Shown here: positions 15,108-63,878 of the stretch, piece after piece
Numbering within the stretch: the stretch's first letter is position 1
How the letters are laid out: each line of letters begins with the position of its first letter
Assembly (NCBI GenBank): GCA_034401795.1
Contig: CM067367.1
Span: 33,997,107-34,061,106, forward strand
DNA length: 64,000 nt
From: Chaetoderma sp. LZ-2023a
Taxonomy: Eukaryota; Mollusca; Caudofoveata; Chaetodermatida; Chaetodermatidae
Direction: 5' to 3'
Position numbers and translations under genes: made by a program
The notes under the pieces: generated by a model
Told to the model about the DNA's origin: nothing
The model's input: the letters and a program-made list of their open reading frames with translations, nothing else
Databases searched by the model: none

Positions 15108-15309
15108 TTTGTTGGATGAGGAGATATTGACATCTATGTTATTACAATAGGGGTTTCTATTTCTAACTAGAAGACGTTGTTTGACTCAAGGGGCCCCGCA
15201 ATCACTTAAAATACCTTTCTCCATGTAGTAGGTAGCAATTTTATTCATTACTTTATTATTAAAAAAAATAAATTAAAAAAAATAAAAAAAGAAAGAAAAA
15301 AAGCCCAAG

Positions 15310-25412: not shown

Positions 25413-28400
25413 CTGAAAAACAACAAAAGCTCAACATGTTTATTATCCAGCTGCCAAGAAATGTACTTAAAAGGCAAGACACATACATTCACATACAGGC
25501 GGATCTGAATACAATACCTCCCTACAGGGTGAGGGTAATGAGCAATTACAATGTAAACATAGACTATTAACCCTTTAATCTTCAAATTTATGAAATAAAG
25601 CTTCCATTTTCTCATAGAAAATGGTCAGTGCAAGAGATTTATGAGATTTGAATTGTAAATATGAAGCTCGCTTGGTTGATATTATTCTACCCATGTCCAT
25701 TATTTGTAGGTTTTACTTTTACTATTAACATCTGACTGCCAAGTTCTTGAAGACGACATATTCCAGGGATTATATCTGTGGACCAGCTAAATATTTTGAA
25801 AACAATTTGACTGAAAGTTGTTGGTGGCTAAGCCACCAACAACTTTCAGTCAAATTGTTTTCAAAATATTCAGCAAGTCAAAAGTCTTTCCTCATTGAAA
25901 TTATTGTCTGGTGTCTTGCAGCGGTGAGACAGCCAAAAAGGTATAATAATGCAAGATGTAATGGCATTGGTCAAACAAGACATCTTAGTATAAATAAATA
26001 GTCATTGATTCCTGAGAAATCTATGGGCCAAATTTACTAAAGGTGTCAATCTCTTAATCATACGTAACTTTCATAATTAAGAAAGGATCATGCGTTTACA
26101 TTTAGTTATCATTTCATAAAGAGTGTTTAGTGTACATGCATCTAAACAGGCCAATGAATTTAGACACATGTGGCTAAGTAACAAAAGAATTATTAAACAT
26201 CTGTTTGGATCAGAGATTCTGATAAGGGTCCTTTCGAGAGTATATACCAACAAAATGCAGCTCGGGACCTAGACTTGTGTGACTATTGCATTGAGGGATC
26301 GCGATCGATTATTAAAAAATAATCGTGATTATCGATTAATCAGCTTGGATAAAATTACCAAGACATAACAACAAAAGAATATCAATGACAAAAATTGCAA
26401 TGGTGTTTAGAAATTCCATTTGCAGGGCAAGAGAAGACTATTTTTGAAAATGTATCACTGGAATGACTGGCTCGATTGTCGAGCCAGGCATTCCAGTAAT
26501 ACATTTTCAAAAACAGTCTTCGTATGCCCTGCAAATGGACATAGATTCACTAAGCAAAATGTAATTTTTCATGACCAATCGTATTAAAAAGTAATTGAAA
26601 GTTAGGTTTTGAAATACTTTATGAAATAGAGCAGATTCACGATTATTCGATTATTTAATTTTTAATCATATAAATTCGTGATTTAAAACATAATCACGAT
26701 TTTTGATTTAATCACGTAATCGCACAAGCCTGTCGGGACCCCAAAGGCAGTGGCAGTGGGTCCTATGGGGCCGCCGAAAGTCTTGTATGATTGTGTAACA
26801 TTAAGTAGCTTTATTTGTTTTTGCACAAAAATACGTAGAAAATCTAAGCATGGGACCCCCTTAATTCATAGTCGTGAGTACATCATACACTATGTGAGAT
26901 ATACTGCTTGGGAAGTCCAGATTTCAGTTTGGGACCCTTGATTTCAGCTGGGGACTCCCAGATTTCAAGGTGTGTGGTCCCCGGGACCTCCAATAATTAG
27001 AAGTGAGTAATAGTTTCCAATAAAATTAAGTACAAAATGGTCAACAGAACGTTTTATTTTCTACTGACAAGTTATTTCTGTGCTGTACTGGAGTCATTAT
27101 ATTGGGTTTCTGATCATGATCAGTTTCAATATGCTTCCTTCTCTCATATTATACAATGGACAAAAAAACTTGAACTTATTCGACAACTCTTAGCACGCAT
27201 AGCAGAATTATCATTTGAAAGTCAATTTCAAAGACAAACCCAGCATACCAGAGCTAGTGATTGACATCCATATTTGTTTTTGCATTATCTTCAATTCCCA
27301 TACTTTTCTTTTTCAAATCTAGTCCAATCAAACAATCGAATTTTAAAATGATTCGACAAAGCCTTACTCATCCCCCTAATTAAAATTTTCTTCAAGTGCA
27401 ACTGAACACTGAACATTGTATTTAAATCAAGCGACGTAACAATTGTACAGACCTTATTGCCCGCTAAAGCTGCTGTTTTAGCTGCTGATGATAGTGAAGA
27501 TGCTGCTGACCACAAACACACTAAGGTGTCCTCACCACCTGTTAATAAGCTCCCCGTCTGAAAGAAACATTTAAATAGAGACAATGACTTCTAAGTGGGT
27601 TTATTTTCAACATAGAAACATATCAAGCATATTTGCCATATAGCATTGTCAGTAATGTCACAGATTTGACCACATATTTAAAAACAGGTTGTGATTCATA
27701 GTTAAAATATACAATTAACCTATATTCTATTTTCTCATAGAAAATGTACATCTGCTGACCAAGAGAAGGCGATTTCTTATCGAGAAAGTCATTCAAGTGG
27801 ATATTTTCAAAAATAGTCTTCTCTTAGCCGGCAAATGGACTTTTCTCAAGATCACTTCAGAGTGCATTTTTGCCGGTTTAATCATTAAAGGGATAAATGA
27901 TCAACCCAACCCGCACGCACTCATGCACACACACACAGGCACATATGCACACACATGCATTCACACACACACAGGCATGCACATACAAACGCACGCATAA
28001 CACGCACACACACACACACATACAAAATCATACACACTGGTGGAAACATTTATGACACAGGCCAGCTTGATGCATACTGGATCCTATTTTCAACTATACC
28101 TGTTGCTGCCACTGAGCACAACGAACAGCTGACCTATGACCTCCAGATAATTTTGAGCATTCTGTCAATCTGCTGTCTGTGTCCAATGATAAAATGTGGG
28201 CGTCTCCTCTATTAAAACAAGAAATACAAGAACTTCATGAGCTTACAAATCAACAACTCCTCAAAGCATTCAAAATGTTACTTATATTAACAAGCCCTTG
28301 AGTGGTCAAGGGATCAAGAAAATTGATGAATCCAGGAAAACTGTTGAATATTTTGAAAAAAATTTGACTGGAAGTTGTTGCTGACTCAGGAAGCAATGAC

Positions 28401-31400
28401 TTCTAGTCAAATTAATTTCAAAGTATTCAACAGATTAAATTGTATTATCTACTTTTTCAGGGATTTGTCAGTGAAAGGGTTAAACCATTACATATCATCT
28501 TATATTCCACTCACTGTGTCTCTCATAAGTGTTCCTTTTGAGGGGACATTATATACCCCCAAGATGCAATGTGGGACCCCCAAATCTTGTGGCAGTGGGT
28601 CTCATGGGACCCCAGAAAATCTTGAATGATTGTTAAATACTAAGTTTTATGGGCTTTTATAGAAACATACTCACAAAATCTACATGTACATGGCATTGGA
28701 CCTCAATAATTCATAGCTGTGAGCTTATGGTACTCTCTCATTTTAGCATGGATGAGAAAAACAGCATGCCTGGGAATCTCAAATTTCAGATTGGGAAGCA
28801 CCACCCCACCCCCCCAATTGCCACCCAGATTTTAGGTGTGTACTCCCAGATTGCTAGGTGTGGCGTCTATGGGAAAAGAAAAATTTAGATGCCATGAGAA
28901 ACTCTGATTCCACTAGTGTAATAATTGTGCTCTACTGACATAAGATGTAAATAATTTATTCCGATGTGCTCATCATCCACCTCATTAAACAAGTGATGCA
29001 TGATCTACTTACTAATGGGGGAATCCAGTTTTAGCTACACCCCGCCCATCTCTAGCTAAGCTCAACCCACGCTTTGACTGTGTTGGGATCGATCGATCCC
29101 TGCACTGCCTGACTATCAATTTTCAGAAAACTATGCAGGTAAGTTGTTGAATATTTTGAAACTAATTTAACTGCCTATCAACAGCACGTTTATTAAATAG
29201 TAAAGACATACAATTCGCACAACAATGCTTAGTCCGTCATCAATTAAGCGTTTGTGACAAACTTATGTATGTCATTCATGACCTAATTGATTACAATGTC
29301 AGCCTACAGGTCACGTAGTTGATTATGACATCATATGACTGATGGAGAACCGGGAATCCACGATTACCACATTGCCTAGTGGCAAGAACCATTGTAAAAT
29401 GATAGATATTCATGAAACACCCAAAAACTTCAATAGATTAGTAAAAAATAATTTTAATTCCTGAAATCATAACATGTTGCATTTATCACTATTTTTTGGT
29501 CAGAACTCTCAGTAGTGAGGTGCTACAGCCATAAATGATGATGATGCAAAATAGTAAGAAAATGGGAAGATGTGAGGGGACAAAACCATCACAAACTGAT
29601 TGCCATTTCATAACAAATATATCACACTCATTTAGCAAGATCTCGCTAAAGTGCGTTCCAAATGATATCTCACTTTTAAACTCATGTGATAAACTTGATA
29701 TAATATTTGAACTCTCTTGAGATCCTCTATATAGTAAAGTTCAGAAATAAAACAAAAACAGAAACATGTTATTTACATGTAGTATAATTTTTAACATGGT
29801 GTAAAAAATGTTCTGTTGAATATTTTGAATATAATTGGCTTGGAAGACATTGCTGCCTTAGGCAGCAATGTCTTCAAATACAATTATATTCAAAATATTC
29901 GACAGTACGTGTTAAGATATTTGTGAGCTGTACAGTATATTTACTCACGTGTGTGTTCCTGCAAGAAGTGTGGATGTTTGTTGTTCATCCACGCATAAAC
30001 AGTCAATTAAGAATTCCACAGGATTACTCTCACCCTTCAAATTCATGAACAAATAAGAGTACATTGTAATCAGTCATTTGAATTTTACTCCTAGGTGAAC
30101 ACAACAATGAGCCTTTATATAATACTAGATGGACTGCGTCCCGCGTGTCGAGCCCTTTAAGTTTTCCGCATGATTTCCTTGAAAAGAAACTATATCACAC
30201 TGAAATAAAATCCAAACCTTGTAAAAGTATGGAAAGAACTTTAAATTCATTTTAATTTTGCTGCAAACTGAATGCAATGATGATATATAACAAATCTGTA
30301 AAGTTTTATTGGGATCGAATAAGCCCTTGATAAATTAAAAGACCATTGAAAAGTTAACATTCTTCTAATTCTGGGGTTAAGCAGGATATAAACCACACAA
30401 AAATAAACTAAGTCCAAATCCGGTAAAAATAAGGAAAAATTTGAAAATCTTATTTACCGGTATTGTCATGTAGTCCAAAAAACAAAACCGCAAAGTTTTA
30501 ATGGGATTGGATAAGTCCTTCTTTGATTAAATGTCAATTGAAAAACTTTAACATTCTTCTAATTCTTGGCTTAAGCAGGATATATATTACACAAAAATAT
30601 TCTAAGCCATGGCCAAATGTCAGAAAAGTATGGGAAAATTTTAAAATAACAATCATTAAGATGGAGACTGGATGAAATGATAGCGCAGAACAAATCTGTA
30701 TAGTTTTATTGACATCGGATTAGCCCTTGATGAATTAAATGTCTATTGAAAAACTTCAACATTTACCTAATTTTTGGTGCATAATAAGCTACCAGTAAGT
30801 CCAAACCCCCTAAAAATATGGGGAAAAATTGAAAATCAGTTTAATTATGATGGAGACTAGTTGCAACGATGGTATAGATCAATTCCGTAAAGTTTTATAA
30901 GTCCTTGATGAATTAAATGTCCATTGATAAACTTTAACATTTACCTAATTCTTGTCACGCCGGACGTCATTTGGATCGTTATGTCGAGATCCTCCGCTTC
31001 GCTATGAACTCAACAAAAATCTAATCTGAACTAATTCGTGTAATTCAGAATGAAAATTGTTAATCATCAGCTTTTTAATCAATGTCAACTTGAATATAAG
31101 ATCAAGACATTTTTTTAACTCAATTACGAGGAGAAACTTGTCAATATACCAATACACATGTATGAAAGGCAAAACTGTTGACTGGTAGCACCCCTACCCC
31201 TACAGAGTACTGGCTTCCATACTGCCAGACACATCTATACTATACGGAAGGCCTTTGGTGGCTCTACATAAAGAAATGCTTCGTACAAACTGATGGACTA
31301 TTGAGCATTTAAGATGAACTAAATTTAGTCATTCATGATGTAATTGATGATGACATCATCCCACATGTCATGTAGTTGATTATGACATCATATGTTTGAT

Positions 31401-34400
31401 GGATAAACTGGATTCCTCTATTGCCAACATTGGTCAAGAAAGTTAATTATTTTGTTAAATAGTGAATGTCTAATAACAGACTAAGAGAAGACTATTTTTG
31501 AAAATTTACCACTGGAAGGACTGGCCCAGTTATCGAGCCAGCCATTCCAGTAGTGAATTTTGAAATATTTTCTCCTCTTGACTCGCAAATGGACACACTC
31601 AATACCAGTGCAGAAGTCATTTTTGGCCAACTTCATGAATAAATTGTCAATCGCAAAAAAATGAACTGCCTATTGCAGTCTAAGTTAGAAGCATTTTTCC
31701 TACAACAACACATTATTGAGAAATTAAGCTATTCAAAAATCAGACACACTTTTGACTAACTAGATTTTATATTTCATGTTAGAATATCATTATCAATATA
31801 GATACTCACAAGGGATGATTGCAAGGCATTAACTTCAGAAACTAAATCTCCCTGAAAGAAAGGATATTTTACATGTCATTAACTCGCTGTCTGTCAGCTG
31901 AATTTCTGCAGCCTACATTTTCCATAGGGGCTAACTCTGGATATGCTGAATATTTTGAAAACAACTTGACTGAAAGTTGTTGGTGGCTAAGCCACCAACA
32001 ACTTACAGTCAAATTGTTTTCAAAATATACAGCGTGTGCAGAATTATTGCCCATTGAAATTATTGTCTGGTGGCTTGCAGCAGCCGGAGAATTACCATAC
32101 ACAGGCAACGAACAAGTCTTCTGGCCTAATAAATCAATAACTACAATATGTAAGAGATATTAGCTGTGATCTATAAATAAATACATTTTAACTATCTGAC
32201 TGCTGCAAGCCACCAGACAATAATTTCAATGGGCAATAACTCTGGCCCCGCTGAATTTTTTGAAAACAGTTTGACTGAAATAAGCCACCAACAACTTTCA
32301 GTCAAATGGTTTTCAAAATATTCAGCAGGTCCAGAGTTAAAACCCATGGAAAATGTAGTCTGCAGAAATTCAGCAGGCAGATAGCCATTTTTTAAAGTTT
32401 ATTTATAGGTCAGGGTTAAAACAATAAATACAGATAGGTCGATATCGGTGGAGCGAAGTAACCCTTCGGGGAAGCACCTCTAAGATAGTGTCATGACTTA
32501 AATACATCTACGTGTAAGCGGCCAATAAAATCAAACTAACGATCAAACGAGTTCCAGTACAGTTAGTTCTCAAATTAGTTAACAGAATATCTTTTGCAGC
32601 AGAAAAAAAATCGCAATTTCAAGACAATTATAAAGGACAGATGTTGAATATTTTGAATTGATCAGTTTATTTTCAAGTGTTTGGGTAATTGTTATTATTT
32701 CTTCACCTCAGCAGCTTGCCAAAGATGAAAGGTATTGTCATGTGCCAGGCTCGCCAGCATTTGATTCTCTGATCCAGCCCAGTGCAGGCGGTACTGTCAA
32801 CACAAATACACAAATACATATATCATCATTATCATTTGCAACAGATATTACATAATTCACCCAGCACTGGACAAACATTTAAGTATCTCACTATGTGTTT
32901 ACATTCTGCTATCTTATCACAATAAGAAAGGAACTGGCCTGTATGTTGAGGCCTCTGCATACACTCATGCTAGGCTATTATTTATCCAGAGCTGTCAAAT
33001 TGTTGTTTTGAGGCTAGTGTTAGAGTAATTGATAAATTAACGATTACAGCTACGAAAGTTGCCAACTTATAAGAATGCACTTCTCGCAAAAAAGTTGAAT
33101 AAAACTTATTTTAATTACCATCAGAGAACATCGGATGGTTAAAAATGTCCAAAACCTATCTTTTCCTGCGCTAATATTTTATAATTTCGGCCCGTTGTTT
33201 GCTAGAAAAATCATAATATGAAATGAGTATTTTGAGTGATATTTTATATCAATTACTACAGCCTGGTTAGTCAGCGATTTCCCGGAATTGTGCGCCTTGC
33301 CTTTGTAGTGACTGCCCAACAGCCCAAGTAAAGTGGATCCCGACAATATGAGAAAAACTTCTCAATTCCCGCGAGCTTTATTCACTTCTTATGTTGGCGG
33401 GTATTATTAGATATCGATTGATACAAGCTACTCTAACGATAGCGAGCTTAAACGCAGCATATGGTAGTCTATTTAGTATGTGTTATAATGGCTAAGTTGT
33501 AGCCCTGCGTGGAGATTTCCACATTTCCTGGCGGTTTCGTTCCATTGCAAATTCATCCTATAAAGCACAGGCCAACGTGGAAAGTTCATTTATTGTTCTA
33601 ACATATAGATCTATGCAGAAAGCCAGGAAAATTAGTAAAACATAGGTTTACATTCATATCCAACGTGTTTGACTCATAACATTGATATTTGTCAGTCAAG
33701 CATCAACAGCTTTAGCTGTTCGCAGTTTCACTGGGCGGGTTCATACGGGACGAGATTTCCCTGGTTACCGGTATCTTGCGATCTCCACGCGGAAATAGTT
33801 GTAATTTCGTGGCAAATTCAAACCATTTGTAGGGATGATTTGGGGGAGTTTCAGCTGTTTTGGGATACGATTTAACTGATGACAGTTAAAATTTAGTGTT
33901 TAATATTAGGATTCATGTAATTTCTTGGTTTTATTGTGGAAATTTGCAGTGACTATTTAAGCAGCGCTGATATACATTGAATATGAAATCATGCTACTCA
34001 AGCCTCACTCAATTTTCCCTATCGGAATAATACCGATACTAAAGGTATACCGCTAATACCGTGAAGCCCTACTGTCTGTTTGTCCACACTACATAACATA
34101 TCTCCGAAATGTAAGAAGGTAGACTCACCAAACCTTGGCACATCCATTCATATTGGGGGGGGGGGGAGTTTCAGTATCTAGGTCATGAGGTCACTAAGGA
34201 CATATAGGAAGGCACGTTTTGTATCATAACGTGGGAAAGCAACTTCATAGAAACACCATATTTTGCTGTGCTAGAAGTAATGGAGGAATCCGGTTTTAGC
34301 TATGTCCTGCTCATTTCTAGCTAATCTCCACCCACATTCGCCCGTGTTGGCATCAGTCGATCCCTGAACTCCCTGACTATGAATTTCTAGAAAAATCTAC

Positions 34401-37400
34401 ATGTAAGCTGTTGAATATTTTGAAACTAATTTGACTGTGTGCTGTTGCTGCCTATGGCAGCAACAGCGCCTAGTCAAATTATTTTCAAAATATTCAACAG
34501 CATGTTTATTAAATAGTAGTCATACAATTTGCGCTTAATCTATCACATCATCAATTAAGCATTCATGACGAACTTATCAACATCATTTATGACATCAATG
34601 ATTATGACATCATCCTACACATCACATAGTTGATAATGACATCATATGATTGATGGATAAACTGAAATGGTCCAGTAGAGGTTCAGGTCGAAGGGTCAAA
34701 TAATAGGTGATGGGGCCACTAAGTGGATACCGAAATATGTATTGGACCAAAAAACTGGAATGCAAGAAGTCACCAAATCTGGAACATTCATTCATATATG
34801 GAATAGAAGTAGATTGATTTTCAGCACAACGGGTCAATGGCATCACTAACATTATTTCTTTCCTGTTACCTTTCTACATTTTGTGTGGCTGAAGTTGTAC
34901 CATCAGCCAAATCTGGCCTTTATAATGGTCAAGAGAAGACTATTCTAACAATTTTACCACTGGAATGACTTGCCTGATAATCGAACCAGTCATGTCACTA
35001 GTAAATTTTCAAATATAGTCTTCTCTGTCCACTCTGCAAATGGACATTTCCTAAAAGAAAATGTGAATTTTCTGGATACGTCTTTTCACTCCAAATGACA
35101 AAGGTTGGAAAATGGGTTAGCCACATGCATTCAAAAATACCTTAACTTTTGGTAAATAATTACTTTAAAGGCAAGACTTAATTCACCTTTCCAGAGTATC
35201 TGTCGATGATTTGATGTCATATGATGTCATAATCAGCTAAGCGGCGTGTAAGATGACGTCATAATCATTACGTCTTAAATGATTCTATTAGGCCCTTCTT
35301 TAACTCTTAATAGTCCGACATGGTGTAAGAATTGTATGTCTCTACTGTTTAATAAACATGCTGTTGAATATTTTGAGACTAATTTGACTGGGCGCTGTTG
35401 CTGCCATAGGCAGCAACAGCACTCAGTCAAATTAGTTTCAAAATATTCACCAGCATACCTGTATAGTTTTCTGGAAATAGATAGTCAGGGAGTTCAGAGA
35501 TCGATCGATCCAACATGAGCGAGGTGTGGGTGGAGCTTAGCTAGAGATTGGCGGGGACTAGCTAAAAATGGAATGGTCCATTATCTGCCATAGACAATAT
35601 GTGAGATGCGGTTATTTGCACACTAATATCTTTTCTCTTACCACAGAAGATTCTGCCTGTAGTGTCTGTTGTAATGCTTCCTCTTCGTCAGTTTCATGCA
35701 GATCATATGTACAAACCAAGCCATCCATAGCGCCTGTCGCTAGACGCTCTCGGTCTGTAGGGTGAAAACATACCTAACAACAAAGAACGCAAGTATTTAA
35801 CAGATTAACACTGAGTTGACAGACATCTTAGATTCCCAGTCACTTTCCTTTAATTTGATAGCTGGTGATTACCTTAAAACAATATGACAATTTCAAAATG
35901 TTCACAAGCTTGCCTTCTATTGGTTTTGAAATAACTAAGATTTCACTATCAGTGTGATAAGACAGTACTAGCTACAAGGTATGATATGCCTTCAATTCTA
36001 CAGGCAGATATTGTATAACAGGGTTCAGATATTGACCATGAAGTAGGACAGTAAGCTTATAAAATAGCTATCATGTTTAAAATACAAAAACAGAAACATG
36101 TTAGTTAGTACAATTTTGAATGCAACGTAAGTAACGTTCGGTTGAATATTTTGTACTTAATTTGATCGGAAGCCATATAATGGCTTTCAATAAAATTAAG
36201 TTAAAAAATTCAACAGTACATTTTTATCTAGTTTTGGAAATATCTATAGTTATTTCTGAGCTATACTATAGTATGGGTACCACTGAATATCTCATGCTTT
36301 GCAGATATTGAAAAACTTATCACTCCTATGGTCAAGGCGACCAAAACACCCCACCAAGAGTATAACAATTCTTTTAATTTAACCACTGAAATGACTAGCT
36401 CACTAGCATAGTCAATCAATCCATTAGTAAATTTTCTAAAATAGCATTCTCTTATCCTGCGAATGGGTGTTCATTAACCATTTAATGGTCAAATTTGGTC
36501 AAGAAAATTTAAATATCTGCCTATTGAATGTCCATTTACAGGCCAAGAGAACACAATTTCTGAAAACCTATCACTGGAATGACTGGCTCGGTTATCTAAC
36601 ACGTTATTCTAGTGGTAATTTTTGAGAAAATTGTATTCTCTTATCCAGTAAATGGACATTACATAAAACCAACACAGACATGACAGAGGACAGTTTTGGC
36701 TGCTTGACATACCTTCACCATTAATGGCTTAACAAGTTTGATTGTGCACCAGACCCTGAAATATTTCTTCCATGATCAAGCAAATTATGGCAGTCTCTGA
36801 CATTCATTAGATTTTAAATATGATTTACAGTATTACCAACAAGAGGCCCAAGGGGCCTGTATCTCTCACCTGGAACATAGGCATTTCAACAAGAAAGGTC
36901 ATCGCGACTAAGTAGAATCCTACGGTTTTGGCCAGAATTGCAACAAGAACTAGGTCATCCAAGATGCCTGCCAAGCAAATCGACCCATCAGGTTCTCTTG
37001 GCCTACACGATGTTTTCTGAGTTTCACATTAATCTGCCAAGTGGTTTCGTTTCCCAAAGACATTTCTAAAAATCAGCCAAAATCCAAGATGGCTGCTGGT
37101 CAAATTGGCCGATCGGCTTTGTTTGAACAAAACTGGATCTCTATACCGCAAGGATGCCTCCTGCCAAATTTACTTGTAATTCAGAAAAGTGGTTCTCCAG
37201 AAGACATTTTAAATTTCCCATTGCTTTAGTATGGGAGTTTTTGGTTAGGAAAAGATCCAAGATGGCCGCGAAACCATTTATCCAACAGTTTCGAAACCGG
37301 AAATTTGAAATCAGCACACCCAAAAAACTATATAAAACCAACTTTGGCTTCAAAACCTGCCCAATAAATAATCCAATATGGCCGCCAAACACACATCTTA

Positions 37401-40400
37401 AATGGACCATGGTGGCCATCCTTTTTTACATATCATCTTCTCTTGAACAAACTTTAATGACCCTTAAATCCTAATCATATTTCCCTAATTTCAGCCCGAT
37501 CCACCCAGCAGTTCTGGAGAAGTTGTTTTTGTGAAAACAACCTCAGCCAAGATGGCTGCTCAATTATTTAGCCACACTTAAACAAACTTGGTTCAGCTCT
37601 TGCCCTAGATGATATTTGACCAGTTTTGTATTGATCCCCCAAGTGGTTTTGGAGATTTTTAAAAAACATTTCTAAAAATTGGCCAAAATCCATGATGGCC
37701 ACCGGCCGATTGGCTTCGTTTGAACAAAAGGGATCTCTATGCCCTTAGGGTGCTTTCTGGCAAATATACTTAAAATTCACCAGGTGGCGCTCGAAAATAT
37801 GTCATTTGAAATTTCCCATTGCTTTAGTATGGGAACTTTAAGGAGAAAATGATCCACGATCCCCGCCAAACCGTTTATCCGACCGTTTCAAACATGGCAA
37901 ATTTGAAATCAGAATACCCCAAAACCCATATAAAACCAATTTTGGCTTCAAAATCCATCAAATAAAACTATCCAATATGGCCACCAAACATGCTACATTT
38001 TGATTAGTCTACGGCGGCCATGTGTTTTGACGGATCAACATCCCTTGAAAGAACTTTAATAGCCCATAGTCACTAACCATATCTGCCATATTTCGGCCTG
38101 ATCCATTCAGCAGTTCTGGAAAAATCGTTTTCACAAAAACTAGGTCATCCAAGATGGCCACCGACCCATTTGCCCAATAACGTTCCCTTGAACAAACTTG
38201 GTTAAGTTCTTGCCCTAGATAATGTTTCACGAGGCTTGCATCAATCCACAAAGCGGTTTCGGCGAAGAAGATTTTTAAAGATATTTCTAAAAATCGGCCA
38301 AAAAATGAGATGGCCACTGGCCAAATTGGCCAATCGGCTTTGTTTGAACAAATGTAAATCTCTATGCCCAAAGGATTGTTCTTGCTAATATAATTGAAAT
38401 TGGCCCAGTCGTTCTCGAGAAGCCATTTTAAATTTCCCATTGTATGGGAATTTTTGGCAGGAAACTGATCCGAAAGCGGAAAATTTGAAATCAGCATACA
38501 CAAAAATCTATACAAAACCATTTTCGGCTTCAAAATCCATCAAATACATAAATCCAAAATGGCCACCCAACACGCTACACTTTGATTGGTCCACGGCGGC
38601 CATATTGTTTTATGTATCAACTTCCCTTGAAACAAACTTTAATGGGTCTTAGTACCTAAACATATCAGCCTAATTTCAGCTCAATCAGTTCAGCGGTTCT
38701 GGAGAAGTCATTTGCGCGAAAAATAGGTCATTCAAGATGGGCGCCGAACTATTTCCCCAATCAAGTTCTCCTGAACAAACTTGGTTCAGCTCTTACCCTA
38801 GATGATTTTTTATGAGTTTTGCATCGATCCCCTAAGTGGTTTCGGAGAAGATTTTTAAAGACATTTCTAAAAATCTGCCAAAAAACAAGATGGCCGTGGG
38901 CCAAACAGGCCGATCGGCTTCGTTTGAACAAACTTGGATCTCTCTACCCTAAGGATGCTTCCTGCCAAATATAATTGAAAGCGGATCCATGGTTCTGGAG
39001 AAGAAGTCGTTTAAAGGAAAAGCTGACGGCCGGATGCCAGACGGTCACCACGGCATATAAGGCCACTTGCCAGGTGAGCTAAAACACTTTCATAATATAA
39101 ATTTAATTTTAAGCTTCCTGGAAATATACATTAAAACACATGATTACTGCACGATTGTAAGTAAGTCTGTTAAGATCATATTTATGTCATTCTACATGCC
39201 TAATCAGTCCAAAATTAAACCCTTTAGCACTTAATATAAACACAATGTCTTCTGTAGTGGTCTTGACGCATGCCAATTTGCCTACTAACATGATTATTTA
39301 TCACTGGAATGAAATAGAGACAGTCATTCCAGTGGTAAATTTTCAAACATAATATTATCTTGTTCTGCATATGGACATTTTCTCTGAGAAAACTTCAACT
39401 TTTTAAACAAATTTGAGGCTTGTCAAAAGGCTAGCTGTCTTAGTAAATAAATGTTACTGACAGCATAAGATTATAATGTAACACATACCTGAGTAATATC
39501 ATCTTGGTGACATTCTGTGTAGCAGCCCCCAAATGTCGTACATCGTCTATCCCTAGAGAAGTCAGTGAGAAAATATATCATGTGAATAATTATCTCGTAA
39601 TGAACCATTCCAGTTTATCCATCAATCTTATGACATCATAATCAACTATGTGACATGTAGGATGACGCCATAATTAACTACATCATGAATTAAGTAGATA
39701 GGTTTGTCACGAATGCTTAATTGATGACGGACTAAGCATTGTTGTATTAATTGTATGTCTTTACTATGTAATAAACATGCTGTTAAATAATTTGAAACTA
39801 ATTTGACTGGGCGCTGTTGCTGCCTATGGCAGCAACAGCACCCAGTCAAATTAGCTTTAAAATATTCAACAGCTTACCTGTATAGTTTTCTGGAAATTGA
39901 TAGTCAGGGAGTTTAGGGATCGATCGATCGATTCCAATATGGGCAAAGTGTGGGTGGAGCTTAGCTAGTGATTGGCGGGGGATAGTTTAAACTTGATTCC
40001 TCCATTACATTGTACCTACTGTGAAGGCATGAAAATCAGTCCTTACACATTGCACAGTGTATTCTTAATTCTTTAACACACAAACTGACCACAAAATGGA
40101 TTCTGCAATGGCCATCAGAAATGTCGATTTGCAGAACAAGAGAGGAACTATTTAAAAAATATTTACCACTGGAATGATTGGCTCGATAACCGAGCCAATC
40201 ATTCCAAAAAAAATGTCCCTAGGTCTGCAAATCAACATACTTTATGAGAAAATTGAAATATTCTTGAAGAAATTTGACTCTCAAGACGGCCAAAAATAAA
40301 CGAAATCAAGGATTTCTTTTTTCACGAGAGAGTTGATACTTACCTCCCTAATACTTTTGATATTGCTAAATATTGGCTTTCACTCAATAAACACTCAGAT

Positions 40401-49400: not shown

Positions 49401-52362
49401 ACGGACGCCGGACAGACGATGGACGGTCGCCATGGCATAAGCTCACTTGGCCATTCTGACCAGGTGAGCTAACAAACTAAATCTGACAAGATTTGTTAAG
49501 AAGACATTTTTTTTGGATTTAGTGAATGTCCATTTGCAGGAAAAGAGAAAATTTAGCGCTGGAATGACTGGCTCAGTGATCGAGAAGTGGTAAAATTTGA
49601 AAAATAGCCCTCTCTTAGCCTGCAAATGTACATTCCTTAAAACCAATGCAACGGCTGGTTTTGACCGGTTCGACCACCAAATGGTTAAACAATAAGGCTA
49701 ATCAGAAATTGCACACTCTCATTCTTTTATTTTTCTTTCAGATTTCTGTCAGATTTATTTTACCTTGGATTCAGTCTAGAGTTGGGTAACCAATGTTTCC
49801 ACAAACAACAATTCATGTGTTAAAATTGAAGCCAATGAGGCCCAAACACAATATCCTCTTTAATCATATGGGCTAAAGGTACTAAATAAAATACATAAAG
49901 GATGAGCTAACTTAATTTCTATCAAAGTAGGAAAATCGAGAAAACTTACCAAAAGAACAAATAGGCATCATCAGTGTGATTGTTCACACCTGCCTCTGAT
50001 CCAGCACATAACAGCCGCCCATCACAACTCACATCACAACTAAGTAAGGGAGCAGTGCTGTTCTCAGGAGCTGAATACAGAAAAACAGCTATTATCTCTC
50101 CACACTATAGTGGTATTTATAAATTATAACATCTTGGTCGAGGTATTTTCAGCTATAAGCAATTCACCTTTCCAGAGTATCCATCTCTTAATCTGACATC
50201 AGATGACGTCATAATCAGCTAAGCGGCGTGTAGCATGACGTCATAATCATAACGTCACAAATGATTCTATATGGCCTGTCTTTAACTCTTAATAGTCCGA
50301 CACATTGTACGAATTGTATGTCTCTAATATTTAATAAACATGCTGTTGAATATTTTGAAACTAATTTGACTGGACACTGCAGCGGCCAGTTAAAATAGCC
50401 TACCTGTATAGTTTTCTGGAAATCGATAGTCAGGGAGTTCAGAGATCGATCGATCCCAACACGAGCGAGGTGTGGGTGGAGCTTAGCTAGAGATGGGTGG
50501 GCCATAGCTAACAAGAGTTTTAGCGAAACTCAATATACACCTGCAAGCATACTTGTTTGAGGAATGCTAAATGTGAATAGTTAGCCTTTGATAATTATCT
50601 GAAAAAAAGGGGGTGGGGGAGCGGGCGCGACACTTCTATTAGGTGTACACATTTGGAATTCACAGCAAAAACATTTAGAGATGAATGCCATCAAAGCATG
50701 CTAAAAATAAAAACAGAGTGCCCTCATTAAACTTAGGCTGCCCACATTATATGTCATGTAATAAATCAGTACACATACTTGGCATTACTTGCATTATTAT
50801 AAAATATTATACATGTATGAAGACGCTATTCAAAACGATGCAAATGACCATCATTCTGAAATTGCATTTGCATTACACAATGATATGAGATAAAAATCAA
50901 CAAACTATGGATTTATAAATATTCAAAGCAGTGATATTTTTTCTACGCACGAGATATTGGCATGCTCATGAGGGCATCTGACTGTTGAGATCAACATGCC
51001 CTCAGTGATTTTCAATAGCATTTGCATCAGGGTACTCACTAAGCTACAGCACTGCACAAGAAAAATGTAGTTTCAAAACTCTCCGCGAAATGGCCTGCAC
51101 AAGAAAAAGTTTGTCTTTCATATACATCTGGACAATCGCACAAGAGATAACTCTGGCAAATATGGGCGGAATTTACTGAAACAAAATCATGAGACTTTGT
51201 CTATCCCTAACACATCTGCTGAAAAAATATTAGTGAGTGTGGGTTCAAAACGCTTCGAGATATGGCGCGGAAAAGAAAATTTTGATAAATCTTAGCATTT
51301 CAAGGGAGGTAACTCTGGCGAATCTTGGCAGATTTTGGTGAAACGAAATCATGATACTTCGTCCACCACTAATACATCTGCCGAAAGAAAATTATGAGTG
51401 TAGGTTTAAAGCTTTTCGAGATATGGCCCGGACAAAAAAAATTTGATGAATTTGAGGTTTTCAAGGGGGGTTATCTCTAGCAAACATGGGCAGATTTTGC
51501 CGGAATAAAATCGTGACACTTTGTCTATCGCTAACACATCTGTTGAAAAAAAAATTGTGAGTGTAGGTTCAAAACTCTTCGAGATCTGACACGGAAAAGA
51601 AATCAGACAGACGGATGGATGGCGAGCGCCACCACATAATATGATCCCGCGTTGCGCCGGCATATAAAAATGGAAAGGCCTATTACAAGTAGTTATCATT
51701 TGAATAAACATGTTTCAAAAGGCTTTTGATGACAATTCTTTGACTTCCCCCCACACCCAAACATTTTGACCAACAAAATGTTGAAAATAGTCTATGCTTA
51801 AAACTGTGGAAAAAATAGGAAAGATTCAGAGAATTTAGAGCGAATGATATAGATTACAATCTCTACATTGAAATATAACATCTCACTTAAGTTTCATTGA
51901 AATCTGAACATGCATTGTTGAATAATAAGGCTAATGAAAAATTGTAACCAAAACATTAACTACAAATAGGTCCATTATGAGTCCAAAACTGCATGTGATA
52001 ATGTAGCTAATGTTGCATAGCATGCCTATAATGGTGATGACAAAGGTAATGATGATGGAGGTGCCGGCGGTGGTAATGTCGATGATGGATAATAACAATG
52101 ACGATGATGATGAGTGGTTGTGCTGATGCCGTTGATGATAATGGACATTATTATGATAATGTGGTAGTGATGATGATGATGATGATGATGAGTGGTTGTG
52201 CTGATGCCGTTAATGATAATGGACATTATTATGATAATGTGGTAGTGATGATGATGATGATGATGATGATGATAATGAAGGTCACAAGAATGGTAGTCGC
52301 AGTGGTTGTGCTGATAGCATTGATGATAATGGACATAATTATGATAATGTGGTAGTATGATA

Positions 52363-52397
<35 letters not shown>

Positions 52398-55300
52398 CAT
52401 GACAAGAATGGTAGTCACAGTGGTTGTGTTGATGGCATTGATGATAATGGCCATAATTATGATAATGTGGTAGTGATGATGATGATGATGCTGATGTTGA
52501 TGGAGGTGACAAGAATAGTATTCGCTGTAGTTGTGCTGATGGCATTGATGATAATGAACATGATTATGATATTGTGGTAGTGGTGATGATGCATATATTC
52601 AATAAAAAGATGGTGATGAAGCAGATCTTGAAGATGAATGTGATGAAGATTCTGTTGATGAAGCTAATGATGAAGCTCTAGTGATGGTAATTCTAATAGA
52701 TAATGATGCTAATTATGATGGTGCATTGTTGATGAGGTATTAAAGTGTTGATGATGCTAGTGATGTTGATGTTAAAAGATGATGATGATGATGGACAGAC
52801 ATCACCATCAGCATCCGCCGCAGCAAATGCTTAAGGTCAGCCTCATTAGTTTAGTCGTGATAACCATGTATACGTTTCCACATTTCATGACAACAATAAC
52901 AATGGAGGATTCTGTTTTATCCATCAATCAAAAGACTTCATAATCAACTACATGATGTGTAGGATGAGATCATAATCAATTATGTCATGAATGATGTAGA
53001 ATACATTCATCATGAGCGCTTAATTTATGATGGAATAAGCATTGTTGTAGGAATTGGATGTCTATACTATTTAAAAAACATGCTGTTGAATAATTTGAAA
53101 ATAATCTGTATTATAGAAGCTATGAAAGAAACATGCATGCATGTTGCACGCATGTTGTTCATGCACACACCTCAATCATAACAATAGAGTGCCTATTTTA
53201 ACACTTTCATCACTGAAACATTACTGATCAGTATTTCAATTTCAAAGCAATCAAATATTTTAAAAATAATGGGACTGAAAGATCATTGTGTTAAAGAGCA
53301 GTATCTGACTATCTGCCAGTCAAATTATTTTCAATATATTCAAATGAATATTTCTCATATCGCAAAAAATGTGTCGTACCAGAAAATTAGTACATGTACC
53401 GGTAGTTAATGAGTGTATCCGTGGTACCTAAATATGGATTAGGTCTAAGGGTAGACCTTGTAAGAAATCTCTTATTACCCGGTTTCAGAAGTGATTTGAC
53501 ACCAGGTTTATGGTAACCTAAGTTTAAACTGTCATATTGCAAACTACGTGATACGTTTGCTGCACTACACAGAAGCCACATGTGCTTGTACCTGTAAATA
53601 TTTGTGCTGATTTTTGCAGACAGCGACAGTCCCAACACCTGCAAATAAACAACGTGTAGTGTTAGGCATTAAAGTGGTTCTTTACCCTTTCACCGACAGA
53701 TCCATGAAAAAGTAAATTCTTTACACAATGAAGCTTATTTTGTTGGATATTTTGAAATTAATTTGACTGGAAGGCGTTGCTGTCTAAGGCAGCAACGTCT
53801 TCCCATCAAATTAATTATAAAATATTCAACAGTTTTCCTGAACAGTTGCCCTTAAAATGAGATATGGAGAATTTATCAATGAAAGGGTTAAATTTATCCA
53901 GAGATATTAAAAACAACTATAGAGGAAATTGGTTGAATATTTTGAAACAAATTTGACTGGAACGTGTTGCCATAATTTCAAATTCTTCAAAATAATATTC
54001 TATACATCTTAAAGAATAAACGAAATCACAGATTTCTTTTTTCATGAGAGAGTTAATACTTACCACCCTAATACTCTATGATATTTCCTAAATATCGATC
54101 TAGCTTCAATAATACTCAGAATTAAAAAGAAACCGCCCCCCCCCCCCCCCCAGTGGGCAGGTTACTCAACTGACAATATTGAAGCTAGGTCGATATTTGG
54201 AAATATAGAGTATCAGGGTGGTAAGTATACTCTTGATGTGAAATATGTCATTCTTGTTCTGTAATGATAATACGGTTAAATACATTTGTACATGAAAACT
54301 AACAACCAATCACAAGACTTCTTACAACATTGAAACATATGCAACAGATCACATTATTTAAGCATTCTGTAAATGTACATTGTGTACCCCTAGTCTACAG
54401 CAAGTCACATGTGTTAAGTTATCATCTGAGTGTCTACCCTGACTAATTGATGAATCCAGATTCTCAGTCAATCATATGACATCATAATCAACTACGTGAC
54501 AGGTAGGCTGACATCATAATCAAGTATATCATGAATGATGCGATTTAATCTGTCATAAACATGTACAGTTTGTCAACTTGTACGAATTGTATATTTTTAC
54601 TATATAATAAGCATTCTGTTTTATATTTTGAAACTTCAGAGTGCAGGGATCGATTGATCCCTAAACAGGCACAGCGTGGAGAGCTTAGCAAGAGATGGGT
54701 GGGACATAGCTTAAACTGGATTCCTCCATTATTTGCTTTACAGTATATGCAGTGTTCGGTTAACCCTTTAATAGCCAAAACCAGCCTCTGCTATAGTCCT
54801 GTGGAATGTCCATTTACTGGTCAAGAGAATACAATTTTTTTAAATTTACTACTGAAATGACTGGCTCAATAACAGAGCCAGTCATTCCAGTGATAAATTT
54901 TCAAAAATTGTATTCTCTTGGCCTGTAAATAGACATTCAATATGAAAATATTGAGATTTTTTGGACCAAATTTGACCATTAAAGGGTTAAGACATGTTTT
55001 ACTTTATACATATTGAAACAAAGCAGGACGTTCTCCCCAACTCTGCACCCCACCCCATGCAAACTGAGGGCGGAACTTAATGTAAACATCACCGCAAAAT
55101 CTGCAATCATAGGAGTAACTTACATGTACATACCAAATTTCTACCATTCTACATACACAACCCCACCCAACCCAACCCCTCGCCCCAGTGGTGGAGCCCA
55201 ATATAAATAATGTCTTGCAATCAGCAATGCTACCGGTATGCGTAACTAACGTACCAATTTTGGTTGAGTTTTAGGCCATCCTTAAATAATAGTTTGCTTG

Positions 55301-55969
55301 TCCTAAAACCAGTCGAGTCAAAATCTTTTTTTGTAGTTTCCTGTGAAGAATTTTTCTAATTTTCTGATGTAAGTCTGTTGGGAGATTGAATTGACGCCTT
55401 TCGTCAAAATGGGCTCAGATAACCTTTAAAAATGGTTTGCTTTTAGTTTCTGCTTCAAGGTCAAATAAAAAACTTCAAGCTTTCTTCTTTAAATTAAATT
55501 TTGTAATGTTATAATTCAACAGGTAAAAAAAACTTTAGACTTTCTGCCTACGTACACCCAACCTTGGGCTGGGGCCTAATGTAAAAGTTTTCCTGCAATC
55601 TCCAATCATATGGGTACCATAAATAACAAATCTGATTGAATTCCAGAAAATGGTTTCGGATAAGATAGCTGATCTGACAGACCGACGGATGGAGGCGATC
55701 ACAATATCCCTCCATTTTTTCAAAACAACATAGGGATAATAAACATTGATTATTTTGCAAACAATTTGTCAGTGTCAATGGTTTTCAATAAAATGTGTTA
55801 AAATGTACATTAAAAGTTAGTAAAATGGTTTTATATCTAGCTAGGAGCTGCATAAACAGAAAGATTCAGAATATTCCACTACACAAAGATCCAAATGCAA
55901 GCAAAATCTGTCCACACTCATATAAACACACACATGCACGCACATGTGTGCGCACGCACGCACATACAT

Positions 55970-56001
<32 letters not shown>

Positions 56002-59000: not shown

Positions 59001-62000
59001 AGTTAAAAACATTAACATTCTTAATAAAGAAATATTAGTTACATCTCCGGAGAACTAAATAATATTTCTTTATTATGAATCATTCTGGAATTGGGAACAA
59101 CAGTTTTGGAAATATTAACATTCTTCTAATTCTGGGGCTAGGATATAAATTACATAAAAATTAACTAAGTTCAAACCCAGTAAAAATAACGAAAAAATTT
59201 GAACATCTTATTTATTGTCATGTAGACGAAATGGACTGATGGTAAAAAACAAAATTGCCAATTTTTAATGGCATTGGATATGTCCTTGATTGATTAAATG
59301 TTAACTGAAAAACCTTAACATTCTTCTAATTCTTGGCTTAAGGAGGATATAAATCCTACAAAATAAGTCAAACCCACGGAAAAATGTGAAAATCACAATC
59401 ATTATGATGGAGAGTAAATGCATTATTAGTATATATCAAATGTGTAGTTTTATTGACATCGGATAAGCCATTGTGTGAAATAAATGTTCATTGAAAAACT
59501 TTAACATTTATCTAAAAACTTACACTGTATCTAAAAACTTTAACATTTACCCAATTCTTGGTGCAAAATAAGCTACATGGAAGTCCAACCACCGCAAAAA
59601 TATGGAAACATTTTTAAAATCATTTCAATTATAATGGAGACTAGATGCAATGATAGTATAGATCAAATCTGCAAAGTGTTATTAACAATGGATAAGTCCT
59701 TGATGAACTAAATGTCCATTGAACAACTTTATGATTTACCTAATTAAGATATCGATATGTTGAGATCCTCTGCTTCGCTAATGGCTCAACAAAAATCTCC
59801 TTGTCTTGACCTGCAAATGGATGTTCACTAAACAAAGTGTAAATTCTCCTGACAAATCTTGACCATTAAAGGGTTAAATAGGAAGTAACGTCTGAAAGAC
59901 AACAATTAACCCTTTAATCATCGAAATTGTTCAGGAAAATTCTAATTTTCTCATAAAAAAGTATTCATTCGCATTCCAAGAAGACCTTTTTTGAAAATTA
60001 ACTGCTGGAATGACTGGTTTGAGTATCGAGCCAGTAATTTAGGTGGTAAACTTTCAAAAATCTTTTGTTGACCTACAAATGGACATTTCTCAAGAGTACT
60101 GCAGAAGCCATTTCTGGCGGCTTGATTGCTAAAGGGTTTATAACATCATCTATCAGTAAGCTGCATGTGTTTCAACATGTGCTTGATATATCTGGTACCT
60201 ATATATTGGCATTATCCACAATAACGCTAATAATACTGACATATTCACGCATCTCATTGCAGGCTTGTGCGATTATTGCTTTGATTGATCACGATCGATT
60301 ATGTAAGAATAATCATGATTACTCGATTAATCAGCTTGGGTAGAAATTATCCAATCATAACACCAAAACGCATATCTCGAGCCAGTCATTCCAGTGATAC
60401 ATTTTCAAAAATAGTATTCTCTTGACCTGCAAATGGACATATATTCACTGAGCAAAACGTCAATTTTCGTGACCGATCTCATTAAAACATAATTAAAAGG
60501 TAGGATTTGAAATCCTCAATTTTATGCAAAAATTAGTAATTGAGAACCAATTGAAATTAGTCACGATTATTCGATTATACAATTTTTAATCATAAAAAGT
60601 CACGATTTAAAAAATAATCACGATTTTCGATTTAATCACGTAATCGGACAAGTCTATCGCATTGTACATGTGCTTGGCAAATGTATTAACATTTCTGCTC
60701 ACAGGCTCACTGACATTAGTGCAAATTGAAGTAATGTTATTGAACTAAAAGACATTTCATGGGACATAACTCTGGCTAATATAGAGAAATAGCACTGTAC
60801 AATGTAATCTCAAGCAAAGTTTCTGTTGAGTTATCTACTTACCAAATTTGAGTGGAATACACACATGTTTTCTAAAGTTATTCTCAAGAAACATGATTTT
60901 TGACAAATTTTCAATTACATTTTCAGATGTAATGGAAACTGAACATTTGGCCTATATTCTCTGGAAATTAGATAAATCAGATTCAACTAGAGGTCTTATA
61001 TCGGTGGTAGCTAATACCCAACATGTACCCATCCACCATGATAGAAGTCAAGATTAGGCATTAGAAGCCAGATACAATCTTTTGTCCAGTAAACGGGTAA
61101 CACAGTACAGCTCAGAAATACAAGTGAAACAAAAACAGAAACATGGTAGTTACATGTGGTACAATTTTGAACATGATATAAGAAATATTCTGTTGAATAG
61201 TTTCAACATAATTGGATTGGAAGACTCAAGAGTTCAATCCAATTATGATCAAAAGATTCAACAGAACATTTTTATTTTGTTTTCGGAAACATTTGAATTT
61301 GATATCAATGACATTTCGAATTGTTTCTAGATAGCATAGTGTTTATTGGTGAATGCAATGGAGGAATCCAGGTTCTCAGTCAATCATATGATGCCCTAAT
61401 GAACTACATTACGTGTATGCTGACATCATAACCAACTATGTCAGGAATGACTCAATTTAATCCATCTTAAACGGTTAAGAATCAGTCAGGTTGTACGAAT
61501 TACTTGTATATGTCGTTACTATTTAATAAACAAGAAACATCACTTTGTTAAATTAGTTTCCAAATATGCATCAGCTTACCTGTAGTTTTCCGGTAATTGA
61601 GATTCAAGAAGTGCAACAATCGATTGATCTCAACATGGGCAAAGTGTGCCGAGCTTAGTAGAGATGGGCGGGGCATAGCTAAAACTAGATTCCTCCATTG
61701 TACGGACAAATTTGCAAAAAAACCTTAACTGCTCAAGCCGGCCAAAAACAGCTTCTACAGTGGTCTTGGTAAATGTCTATTTGCAGACCAAGAGAAGACT
61801 ATTTTTTTTAAATTTACTGCTGGAATGACTGGCTCGAAAAACGATAAATATTTTAATTTTCCTGAAGAATTTGAGGATTAAGCAGTTAACTCAAGAAGCT
61901 TACCTTTTTTGAACATCTAATTCCAGGATATAATCTGTCTCCTTGTCTTTTATTGTTTCAGCTTTAGATAGGGATCGGCTGTCTGTAAGCCTCAGGCGTC

Positions 62001-62046: not shown

Positions 62047-62630
62047 CTGAGGAAAACAAAAAAAATTAACAGTAGATCAAGGATCGAAATGCCTATTTGC
62101 CCTGTTGCCCGGGGAAACCCGATTTTCAAAAGGGCAACTAAACTTTGGCTGTTAATGGTACACAAGGTAACCTTGATAAATACTTAGACTAATAGTGTTT
62201 TGATACCTACTGTCTAACTCCTCGTCCTACGGCATTTATTTATTTAATTATTAGAAAGAGTAACCAGTATGTGTAATGCCATTTCTCAATAATTGTGCTC
62301 ATTCTTCAGAATTTACTTGACAAAGCAATAGTGATTCTAATTTTCTGTCATTTAGCTTACCATATACGGGCAAACTTAATCTGTGATGGGCAACCTGAAA
62401 ATGCATGAAATGGCATCATACATTGCCCTGCAGGCAACTACATCTTTTCATTTATTTCTAACCCTGTAGACCCAAGGGCCTTAGGGCTAAGCTGCCTAAT
62501 ACTGAGACTGTGCACTATAGGTGGCTTAAGAGAATTTCTTTCTTGATTGATTAATAATAATAACAATACATTATGTTCTAGCTGAATGGTTTATTATTGC
62601 CTTTTTAGGAATAACTTTTGACCTATCCTC

Positions 62631-62873
62631 TTAACCCTTTCACACTCATATCAGCCAAAAACGGCTTCTGCAGTAGTCTTCAGAAATGTCTATTTGCAGA
62701 CCAAGTGAAGACTATTTTTGAAAATTTATCCCTGGAATGACTGGCTCGATAACTGAGCCAGTCATTCCAGCTGTAAATTTGTAAAAAAATTAGTTATCTC
62801 TTGGCCGGCAAATGGACATTTTCTACGAAAAAAAAGAAATTTTCTTGAACAAATTCGAGGGTTAAAGGGTTAA
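62631..62873. mobile_element. TTAA-flanked palindromic MITE (piggyBac-like), complete
   Basis: TTAACCCTTTCACACTCATA at the left, ...GAGGGTTAAAGGGTTAA at the right. The interior hairpin contains CTGGAATGACTGGCTCGATA and its complement with loop ACTGAG. It lies upstream of WDR89 coding exon 1, so it could be in a 5' intron. Confidence 0.82.
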
Positions 62874-62924
62874 CAAGCAATTTCATAGATCTCTGTAAAT
62901 GTGTTTATAAAGATAGTAAATAGC

Positions 62925-63060
62925 AAATCAACCAATCAGGTTCTATTGAACAAACTTGGTTCAGCTATTGCCATAGATGAAGCTTCTTGAGTTTCATTTC
63001 AATCTGTCAAGCGGTTTCAGAAGAGTTTTAAATGTGTTTAAAAAAATAGCACAAAATCAA
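62925..63060. repeat. R-type repeat fragment
   Basis: CCAATCAGGTTCTATTGAAC AAACTTGGTTCAGCT...TCAAGCGGTTTCAGAAG matches internal R text. Confidence 0.6.
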
Positions 63061-63257
63061 AAATGGACACCAGCTAGTTGTAAAGTAAACTTTTTCTAAA
63101 ATAAGATGGGTACAATGCAAAAATGCAAGTTATTCAGTCATCTCAGTATTTAACTATGGTGTATGCGATACACAAGTGCTGATATGATACATGTATCATC
63201 AAGCTTTAGTATCATGATACAGTCATACACACTATGTAAATGTATATTGTGACACCC

Positions 63258-63260
<3 letters not shown>

Positions 63261-63299
<39 letters not shown>

Positions 63300-63350
63300 T
63301 GCGTGCGTGCATGTATGTGCATGCATATATGCATGTTGTGTGCGTGCATG
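63261..63350. repeat. TG microsatellite
   Basis: (GT)n of about 15 units, then GTGCGTGCATGTATGTGCAT-type variants, ending next to a LINE fragment. Confidence 0.88.
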
Positions 63351-63414
63351 AATGTGTATACAGGGATCTTCATACGGGTCCAACACCGACACTCATCCAC
63401 CAATATCTATTACT

Positions 63415-63483
63415 GAAAGTGAAAAGGAACTTGGTGTATACATTGATGACCGGCTATCCTTTGACACCCACATCAACACCTGA
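63415..63483 (+). pseudogene. LINE RT fragment (ELGVYIDDRLSFDTHINT)
   Basis: A 23-codon scrap ESEKELGVYIDDRLSFDTHI and NT, then a stop. It matches the well-known K-LGV--D--L-F--HI segment downstream of the catalytic box in Jockey/CR1-type LINEs. It follows a TG microsatellite directly. The rest of the element is absent. Confidence 0.72.
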
Positions 63484-63701
63484 TTTATTCCATTAAATGG
63501 TTAAAAACTGATTTGTAGTTTAAATCCACAAATCCCCTTTTATTGCTATGATATGCCCTACTGTATTCATTCAGCTATTCTATTCATTTTCCCACACACA
63601 TCCATGCCACTTCTAATCACACCTGCCCTCACTGGCTAAACTCACATTATTCCACCTATACTTGACCGTCTCTTATATTTTCTTTCATTATGACATTTTG
63701 T

Positions 63702-63878
63702 TTAACCCATTTAATGAGAATTTTTTTGAGCTATTTTGAAAGTAATTTGGCTGGAAGTTGTTACTGCATAAGACAACAATGCCTTCCATTCAAATTAATT
63801 TCAAAATATTCAACAGCTTTCCTGTTAATGTTACATTCAGATTGTATTAAAGGCCAGTTTCATCGGTGAAAGGGTTAA
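63702..63878. mobile_element. TTAA/CCC MITE with the TGTTGAATATT-type palindrome
   Basis: TTAACCCATTTAATGAG at the left and CGGTGAAAGGGTTAA at the right. Central hairpin AGCTATTTTGAAAGTAATTT...TTCAAAATATTCAACAGC. TTAA on both sides. Confidence 0.75.

Follow-up and report, generated by a model that had tools for sequence, protein, structure and literature searches.

Palindromic cores of differently ended MITE families in Chaetoderma probably derive from nested TTAA-bounded elements

Introduction

A stretch of 64,000 nucleotides from the caudofoveate mollusc Chaetoderma sp. LZ-2023a (assembly GCA_034401795.1, contig CM067367.1, positions 33,997,107 to 34,061,106; hereafter the window) holds, at many places, two near-perfect palindromes, core A (93 bp) and core B (127 bp), which lie inside miniature inverted-repeat transposable elements (MITEs) with different ends. 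The question raised by this locus is how one hairpin came to be carried by several such families. The original prediction offered three answers, namely that the cores are themselves mobile, are exchanged by recombination, or are selected for a function. We put at roughly 0.7 the probability that cores A and B form the central parts of TTAA-bounded MITEs which later became nested in other MITEs, the carriers M1 and hAT-like being composites. The first of the three answers comes nearest, in that something mobile carried the palindrome, but the mobile unit would be the whole TTAA MITE of 211-240 bp rather than the core of ~90-120 bp, because the flanks beyond the core are common as well.

Abundance of the palindromes and the mobile unit

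The genome searched comprised 2,438,752,110 bases in 2,753 contigs, the window being part of it. Individual copies were studied in a sample consisting of the window, 20 random 10-kb stretches (L009-L028) and loci brought in by searches; L001-L008 and L031-L050 were picked for a core A match, 20 of the first 28 loci are random, and L031, which is the same place as L011, was dropped before counting. Copies are present between 25,780 and 63,830 of the window, as predicted, but are not confined to that range, occurring also at 13-17 kb and genome-wide. The core A arm (CTGTTGAATATTTTGAAA) gave 341,343 + 341,490 genome matches with at most two mismatches, or ~683,000 places, against 154 + 131 for the reversed-pattern control; at the same threshold the core B arm gave 125,259 + 124,617 (control 0 + 0), or ~250,000. 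The right junction of M1 was matched 189,987 times (94,803 + 95,184) with at most three mismatches (control 0 + 0). Pattern controls so far below the counts rule out the similarity being chance AT-rich text, an objection named beforehand.

DNA folding of four copies gave z scores of -13.1 to -15.7 relative to shuffles, and no Rfam family matched in the window. The presence of core A inside M1, M3, M4 and TTAA/CCCTTTC elements was borne out by the element consensuses. The consensus cores of four core A types have 70-83 of 93 positions in common, and the loops vary between families while pairing is retained.

The core is thus the part most similar between families, which speaks for a bare palindrome that is itself mobile, or that is swapped by recombination between unrelated MITEs; so does M4, which has the core in common with little flank. 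We nevertheless regard this explanation as quite unlikely, since flanks beyond the core are common to M1, M3 and the hAT carriers, as described below. Flanks were compared by testing the sequence just outside the core against 2000 mononucleotide shuffles, and were assigned to a host type at z > 3. The window and the random stretches together hold 34 full-length core A copies, of which 24 had both flanks assigned, seven had one and three had none, so that 31 carry at least one known host flank; two of the three unassigned copies start with TTACCTGTA or TTTACCTGTA on the right, resembling by eye the M1/TTAA_A flank. No clean core-only insertion occurs among these 34 copies, and core-only mobility was rejected.

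TTAA-bounded families

Three consensuses have TTAA at their ends (lengths include the TTAA): TTAA_A (TTAACCCTTTCACC...core A...GGTGAAAGGGTTAA, 211 bp), M3 (TTAACTGTCTCACTGC...core A variant...GCAGTCAGATAGTTAA, 213 bp) and TTAA_B (240 bp, around core B). M3 had been described as having CTATCTG ends; its true ends are TTAA-CTGTCTCACTGC...GCAGTCAGATAG-TTAA, and its target is that of the TTAA/CCCTTTC element. It follows that M3 and TTAA_A target the same site, and that the claim of different transposition chemistries carrying one hairpin must be narrowed: the palindrome does lie in elements with different ends, but M3 represents no different chemistry. TTAA_A and TTAA_B start CCCTTT, in agreement with the terminal motif CC[C/T]T used in PMC2872659, and resemble piggyBac/TTAA MITEs in general in this and in their TTAA ends.

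Individual copies retain these ends to varying degrees. TTAA was found at both ends of 17, at one end of 18 and at neither end of 10 of the 45 TTAA_B copies. The M3 query gave 11 matches, two of which are TTAA_A copies, and the remaining nine have TTAA at both ends (2), one end (6) or neither (1); for the 34 matches to the TTAA_A query, which include M1 copies, the corresponding numbers are 6, 11 and 17.

M3 has two similar flanks (z 11.1). Each is like the right flank of TTAA_A (z 4.6 and 3.5) and unlike the left one (z 0.7 and 0.5); the M3 flanks and the right flank of TTAA_A all end at TTAA. A third TTAA-bounded family (L004:112-322 and L007:2482-2690) has a palindromic centre, core C, which is ~70% like core A (BLAST matches of 72% and 70%).

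Within the window, TTAA_A is found at 53681..53891 (+), reading TTTA-CCCTTTCACC...core A (53741-53832)...GAAAGGG-TTAA, its ends located with the family consensus. Further copies lie at 63702..63878 (+; left half diverged, core A match 63732-63816, right end GGTGAAAGGG-TTAA) and 28341..28483 (-; core A 28341-28433, GTGAAAGGG-TTAA end at 28471-28483, other end diverged). M3 occurs at 32188..32384 (+; TTAA-CTATCTGACTGC...core A variant...GGCAGATAG, right TTAA lost), 31885..32096 (-; TTAA ends decayed, core A variant 31944-32033), 25725..25934 (-; core A variant 25786-25875, the first core of the original prediction) and 48018..48228 (+; left TTAA-CTGTCTCACTGC, core A variant 48081-48172). Two TTAA_B copies, 54760..54990 (-; core B 54808-54934) and 62631..62873 (-; core B 62688-62817), have TTAA at both ends.

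M1 as a probable composite element

The M1 consensus is ~396 bp long, with ends AATTCACC/AATGGACC/AATGGAGG. Its flanks, cut by hand at 59 and 61 bases at the presumed TTAA ends, resemble those of TTAA_A on the same sides (left with left z 5.1, right with right z 6.3) and not on crossed sides (z 0.2 and 1.1). The similarity reaches ~60 bp past the core on each side, to about the TTAA ends of TTAA_A, and is seen in one orientation only. In L001 the right half of M1 stands next to a TTAA_B copy, and in L011 and L047 next to other DNA. At L047 an open reading frame adjoins the M1 right half.

No target duplication stands out in the 27 of 32 M1 copies that were kept as having both ends located (four or fewer mismatches to the end anchors), and the transposition class of M1 was therefore left unassigned; an earlier candidate target, TA, was dropped for the same reason.

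In the window one such composite lies at 35190..35583 (+), where outer ends AATTCACC.../...GGTCCATT enclose a TTAA_A-like middle with core A at 35361-35453. Others are at 34278..34676 (-; core A 34408-34500), 39599..40007 (+; core A 39780-39872, the core spacer being TAT, not ATA, relative to the flanks), 14729..15110 (+; core A 14890-14981) and 50161..50529 (+; palindrome partly deleted). The copy at 54445..54731 (+) has lost most of its palindrome; this 54.4-kb place and L020 had been considered as M1 relatives lacking the core, and proved to be deletions inside the palindrome.

Nested copies and a candidate insert-free locus

A full-length TTAA_A (L008:2199-2410, 82% identity to the consensus, exact TTAA duplications) lies inside the M1 copy L008:1926-2509. 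With the insert removed, 164 bp of the joined flanks align at 83.5% with a second M1 copy, L024:9234-9397. The TTAA that the insert occupies is also where the older TTAA_A-like middle begins on the left side of M1.

This nested copy also bears on a reversed order of events, in which TTAA_A would be descended from an M1-like element whose middle part gained TTAA ends. M1 is the most numerous carrier, as its ~190,000 junction matches indicate, and this would suit such an origin. We consider it improbable, given that three TTAA families (TTAA_A, M3 and that of core C) hold core-A-like palindromes in the same layout, that the similarity of M1 to TTAA_A ends about at the TTAA of the latter, and that TTAA_A has been found inserted in M1.

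If the TTAA_A-like middle of M1 is an insert, M1 halves joined at one TTAA might be found. In a genome search, at least three matches span such a joint among the 40 of 3,291 candidates that were scored. L051 and L052 both read GGCTTAACACGAGCGAGG, with a single TTAA where filled M1 copies show TTAATTAGTCCGACATG...GATCCCAACACGAGCG; they have their outer flanks in common and hence are one locus present twice. From its sequence, this locus looks like M1 without its insert. A third candidate, L053, was set aside as a deletion that retains part of the right flank. The empty-joint pattern itself has 19 genome matches with at most two mismatches (control 3): two of them are L051 and L052, five share a different spelling, and there are twelve others.

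The hAT-like carriers and M4

Core B was predicted inside TTAA elements and inside hAT-like elements with an 8-bp target-site duplication (TSD), and this proved correct, the duplication being present in all three hAT-like copies examined. These are 26270..26732 (+), with TSD TCGGGACC at 26262-26269 and 26733-26740 (8/8) and a TTAA_B-like middle (core B 26415-26540); 60260..60656 (+), with TSD TCTCATTG/TCGCATTG at 60252-60259 and 60657-60664 (7/8), where half of core B has been lost (match 60377-60438); and L055, with CACTGACT (8/8). Similarity between TTAA_B and L055 extends ~60 bp beyond core B on each side, with z 4.5 and 3.0 on matching sides and 1.1 and 2.0 on crossed sides. A second variant of the TTAA_B right flank gave z 2.3 straight and 2.1 crossed, which makes the right-side similarity weak. 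The outer hAT halves are 211-227 bp apart in all seven genome pairs for which both halves were reported.

M4, which may be a Tc1/mariner-like MITE, has the consensus TA-CAGTACAGCTC...GTACTG-TA from 24 rows, of which one repeats a place (L031/L011) and one is an M1 copy; the TA is not distinguishable from part of the terminal inverted repeat. Its flanks compare with those of M1 at z 1.5 (left) and 1.3 (right). In the window M4 is found, with Tc1-like ends and TA, at 29740..29937 (+; core A variant 29813-29905, extent from the M4 alignment), and a copy with degraded core A lies at 36047..36270 (+). In L028 a TTAA_B copy (8167-8292) apparently interrupts the core A that belongs to an M4-type element; once this copy is removed, 121 bp of the joined flanks align at 77% with L018:63-180.

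The objection that all hosts of a core are diverged versions of one ancestral element is valid for TTAA_A and M3; it does not extend to M1, M4 and the hAT carriers in their outer parts.

Conservation of the core and pairing of its arms

The outer halves served to find 32 M1 copies, each having its two halves 100-330 bp apart; other copies were left out. Measured against the M1 consensus, identity in these copies is 0.80 and 0.85 in the outer parts, 0.86 and 0.88 in the flanks, and 0.92 in each core arm (27 and 30 copies had enough arm). The core differs from the outer parts (paired Wilcoxon p 1.5e-8) and from the flanks (p 2.6e-4). Mixing of subfamilies at the outer ends may account for part of the gap between core and outer identity.

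Compensatory double changes, counted in cores of at least 93% of query length, exceed those in between-copy arm shuffles for B (48 vs 24.4, 39 copies), A1 (19 vs 6.6, 27 copies) and A2 (19 vs 8.6, 17 copies), and show no excess for A3 (3 vs 1.7, nine copies) or A4 (3 vs 2.2, 21 copies). When only changes private to one copy are counted, there are 6 compensatory pairs, vs 2.5 +- 1.7 in shuffles, and four of the six come from one family, so correction within single dead copies is not demonstrated. The expectation that arm pairing is kept when the loop changes therefore holds between families and subfamilies, but not demonstrably copy by copy. The palindrome centre is gapped in 20 of the 32 M1 copies, as would be expected of unstable palindromes, and in the 12 gapless copies the spacer relative to the M1 flanks is ATA in six and TAT in two.

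The higher identity of the core and the excess of compensatory changes in B, A1 and A2 are what would be seen if the hairpin were kept by selection for an RNA or DNA function, such as a small-RNA precursor or a cis signal for transposition, and were for that reason present in several families. This we hold to be unlikely. A3 and A4 lack the excess, private changes are few and largely of one family, many M1 copies are gapped in mid-palindrome, Rfam offers no match, template switching between the arms would yield the same pairing, and identity in the outer parts of M1 is lowered by a consensus that mixes subfamilies.

Proposed origin of the composites

Under nested TTAA insertion, MITEs with a central palindrome would have been moved in trans, most likely by transposases of the piggyBac class. 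At a TTAA site, ancestral M1 would have received a TTAA_A-type copy, and the ancestral hAT-like element a TTAA_B-type copy; the core of M4 may have arrived by a similar event that is now eroded. Insertion presumably came first and amplification afterwards, the composites multiplying through their outer ends, with the result that the palindrome rides in families with different ends. One may guess that master copies need or regenerate a good palindrome, through selection or template switching between the arms, and that dead copies decay and lose it by deletion.

The piggyBac transposase domain PF13843 has at least 119 matches in the genome (116 of 427 candidates were scored), several of them in long open frames. 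Kolobok elements also target TTAA; we infer that piggyBac is the more probable source of the transposase.

Several observations weigh against this origin. The right boundary of the TTAA_A-like middle in the M1 consensus is CCAA, not TTAA, and M3 starts CTGTCT, departing from the CC[C/T]T motif and, in this, from piggyBac/TTAA MITEs generally. These differ also in that no autonomous element with the same ends was found here, the flanks of the transposase matches not having been read. The L051/L052 locus is the single insert-free one found among ~190,000 M1 copies, and may instead reflect a deletion that happened to be exact, or precise excision of the insert at a later time; of five read among the 17 further joint matches, L057, L058 and L061 are filled M1 copies, and L059 and L060 are not M1. 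Related empty sites, sought for all located TTAA copies, were found for 6 of 49 vs 18 of 245 random controls (one-sided Fisher p 0.19), eight of the 18 control matches falling in the repeat-rich L010 and L016; with no excess over controls the statistic was dropped, and only single cases were retained. For the hAT-like carriers, the flank comparison is of one copy, and a search for an element lacking core B found none: of the spanning matches, the two longest were an end-to-end arrangement and a filled copy. The left flank of M4 resembles that of TTAA_A weakly (z 2.8; p 0.012, in one of 14 comparisons); the right flank does not (z -0.3).

Other features of the window and genome

Frames at 41212-44482 of the window match reverse transcriptase (RVT_1, E 6e-23), a SAM-like domain of phage integrase (E 1e-4) and, weakly, RNase H, a layout which we take to suggest a DIRS-like retroelement. 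What looks like a similar, more broken copy lies at 20-24 kb (20243-22633, -). The segments 40294-40637 and 18799-19137 have terminal inverted repeats of 57-58 bp (100% and 93%) with neither core A nor core B between the arms, and look to be of an abundant repeat type without such a palindrome. L010:1423-9997 is a tandem array of ~500 copies of a 17-bp unit, TGCAGTAACCTTCGTAG. Contig C18 has two COX1 matches (3290777-3292072 and 4648793-4650145) in open frames of 708 and 690 amino acids, unlike the animal mitochondrial gene. A bacterial cobiont or a contaminant is a possible source of this contig, whose long frames look bacterial.

Relation to known elements and significance

The closest parallel is found in the Acropora CMITE and CMITE-IN elements (Wang et al. 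2010, PMC2872659). As presented in the main text of that paper, these have TTAA duplications and CCCTTT-type ends in a genome with piggyBac-like genes, their internal region is better conserved between families than the terminal inverted repeats and is common to families whose repeats differ, and one composite arose when a CMITE inserted at a TTAA of a proto-element. The Chaetoderma elements agree in these respects: TTAA, type of end (in TTAA_A and TTAA_B), conserved inside with different ends, composite at TTAA, and piggyBac genes. The coral elements, in the same account, are ~100 bp long and present in modest numbers, whereas those described here are 211-240 bp with hundreds of thousands of arms, have long palindromic insides, and form composites with non-TTAA ends (hAT, with its 8-bp duplication, and M1). 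The string "palindrom" does not occur in the main text of PMC2872659, and the 60-base consensus printed there for the CMITE inside, whose conserved stretch is 75 bases, is by eye unlike cores A and B; the present elements were not classed as CMITEs.

Homogenisation of inverted-repeat arms by template switching (PMC8604942) would resemble the present case in that the arms stay complementary through two-sided changes and the spacer occurs in both orientations; here it is a candidate process, and the copies are few. A search of the open literature by words, not by sequence, found no publication on these sequences. The event is of the same kind as that in coral CMITEs, what is new being the sequences, the far larger numbers, the palindromic inside and the non-TTAA composites; it is a very abundant new example, and not a new kind of mobile hairpin.

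A bolder proposal, and one that we think rather unlikely, is that the palindromic core is a portable amplification module, a MITE that acquires it by nested TTAA insertion multiplying better because the hairpin aids excision or replication. If that were true, one palindrome would underlie several of the most numerous MITE families here, whatever their ends.

Nested TTAA insertion would explain simply how MITE families can differ at their ends and yet agree inside: a TTAA MITE inserts into another MITE, and it is the composite that then spreads, here to ~190,000 copies. Sorting MITEs by their ends alone, or by their insides alone, would then mislead. The elements of this genome also offer a large natural data set on why a central palindrome outlasts its surroundings.

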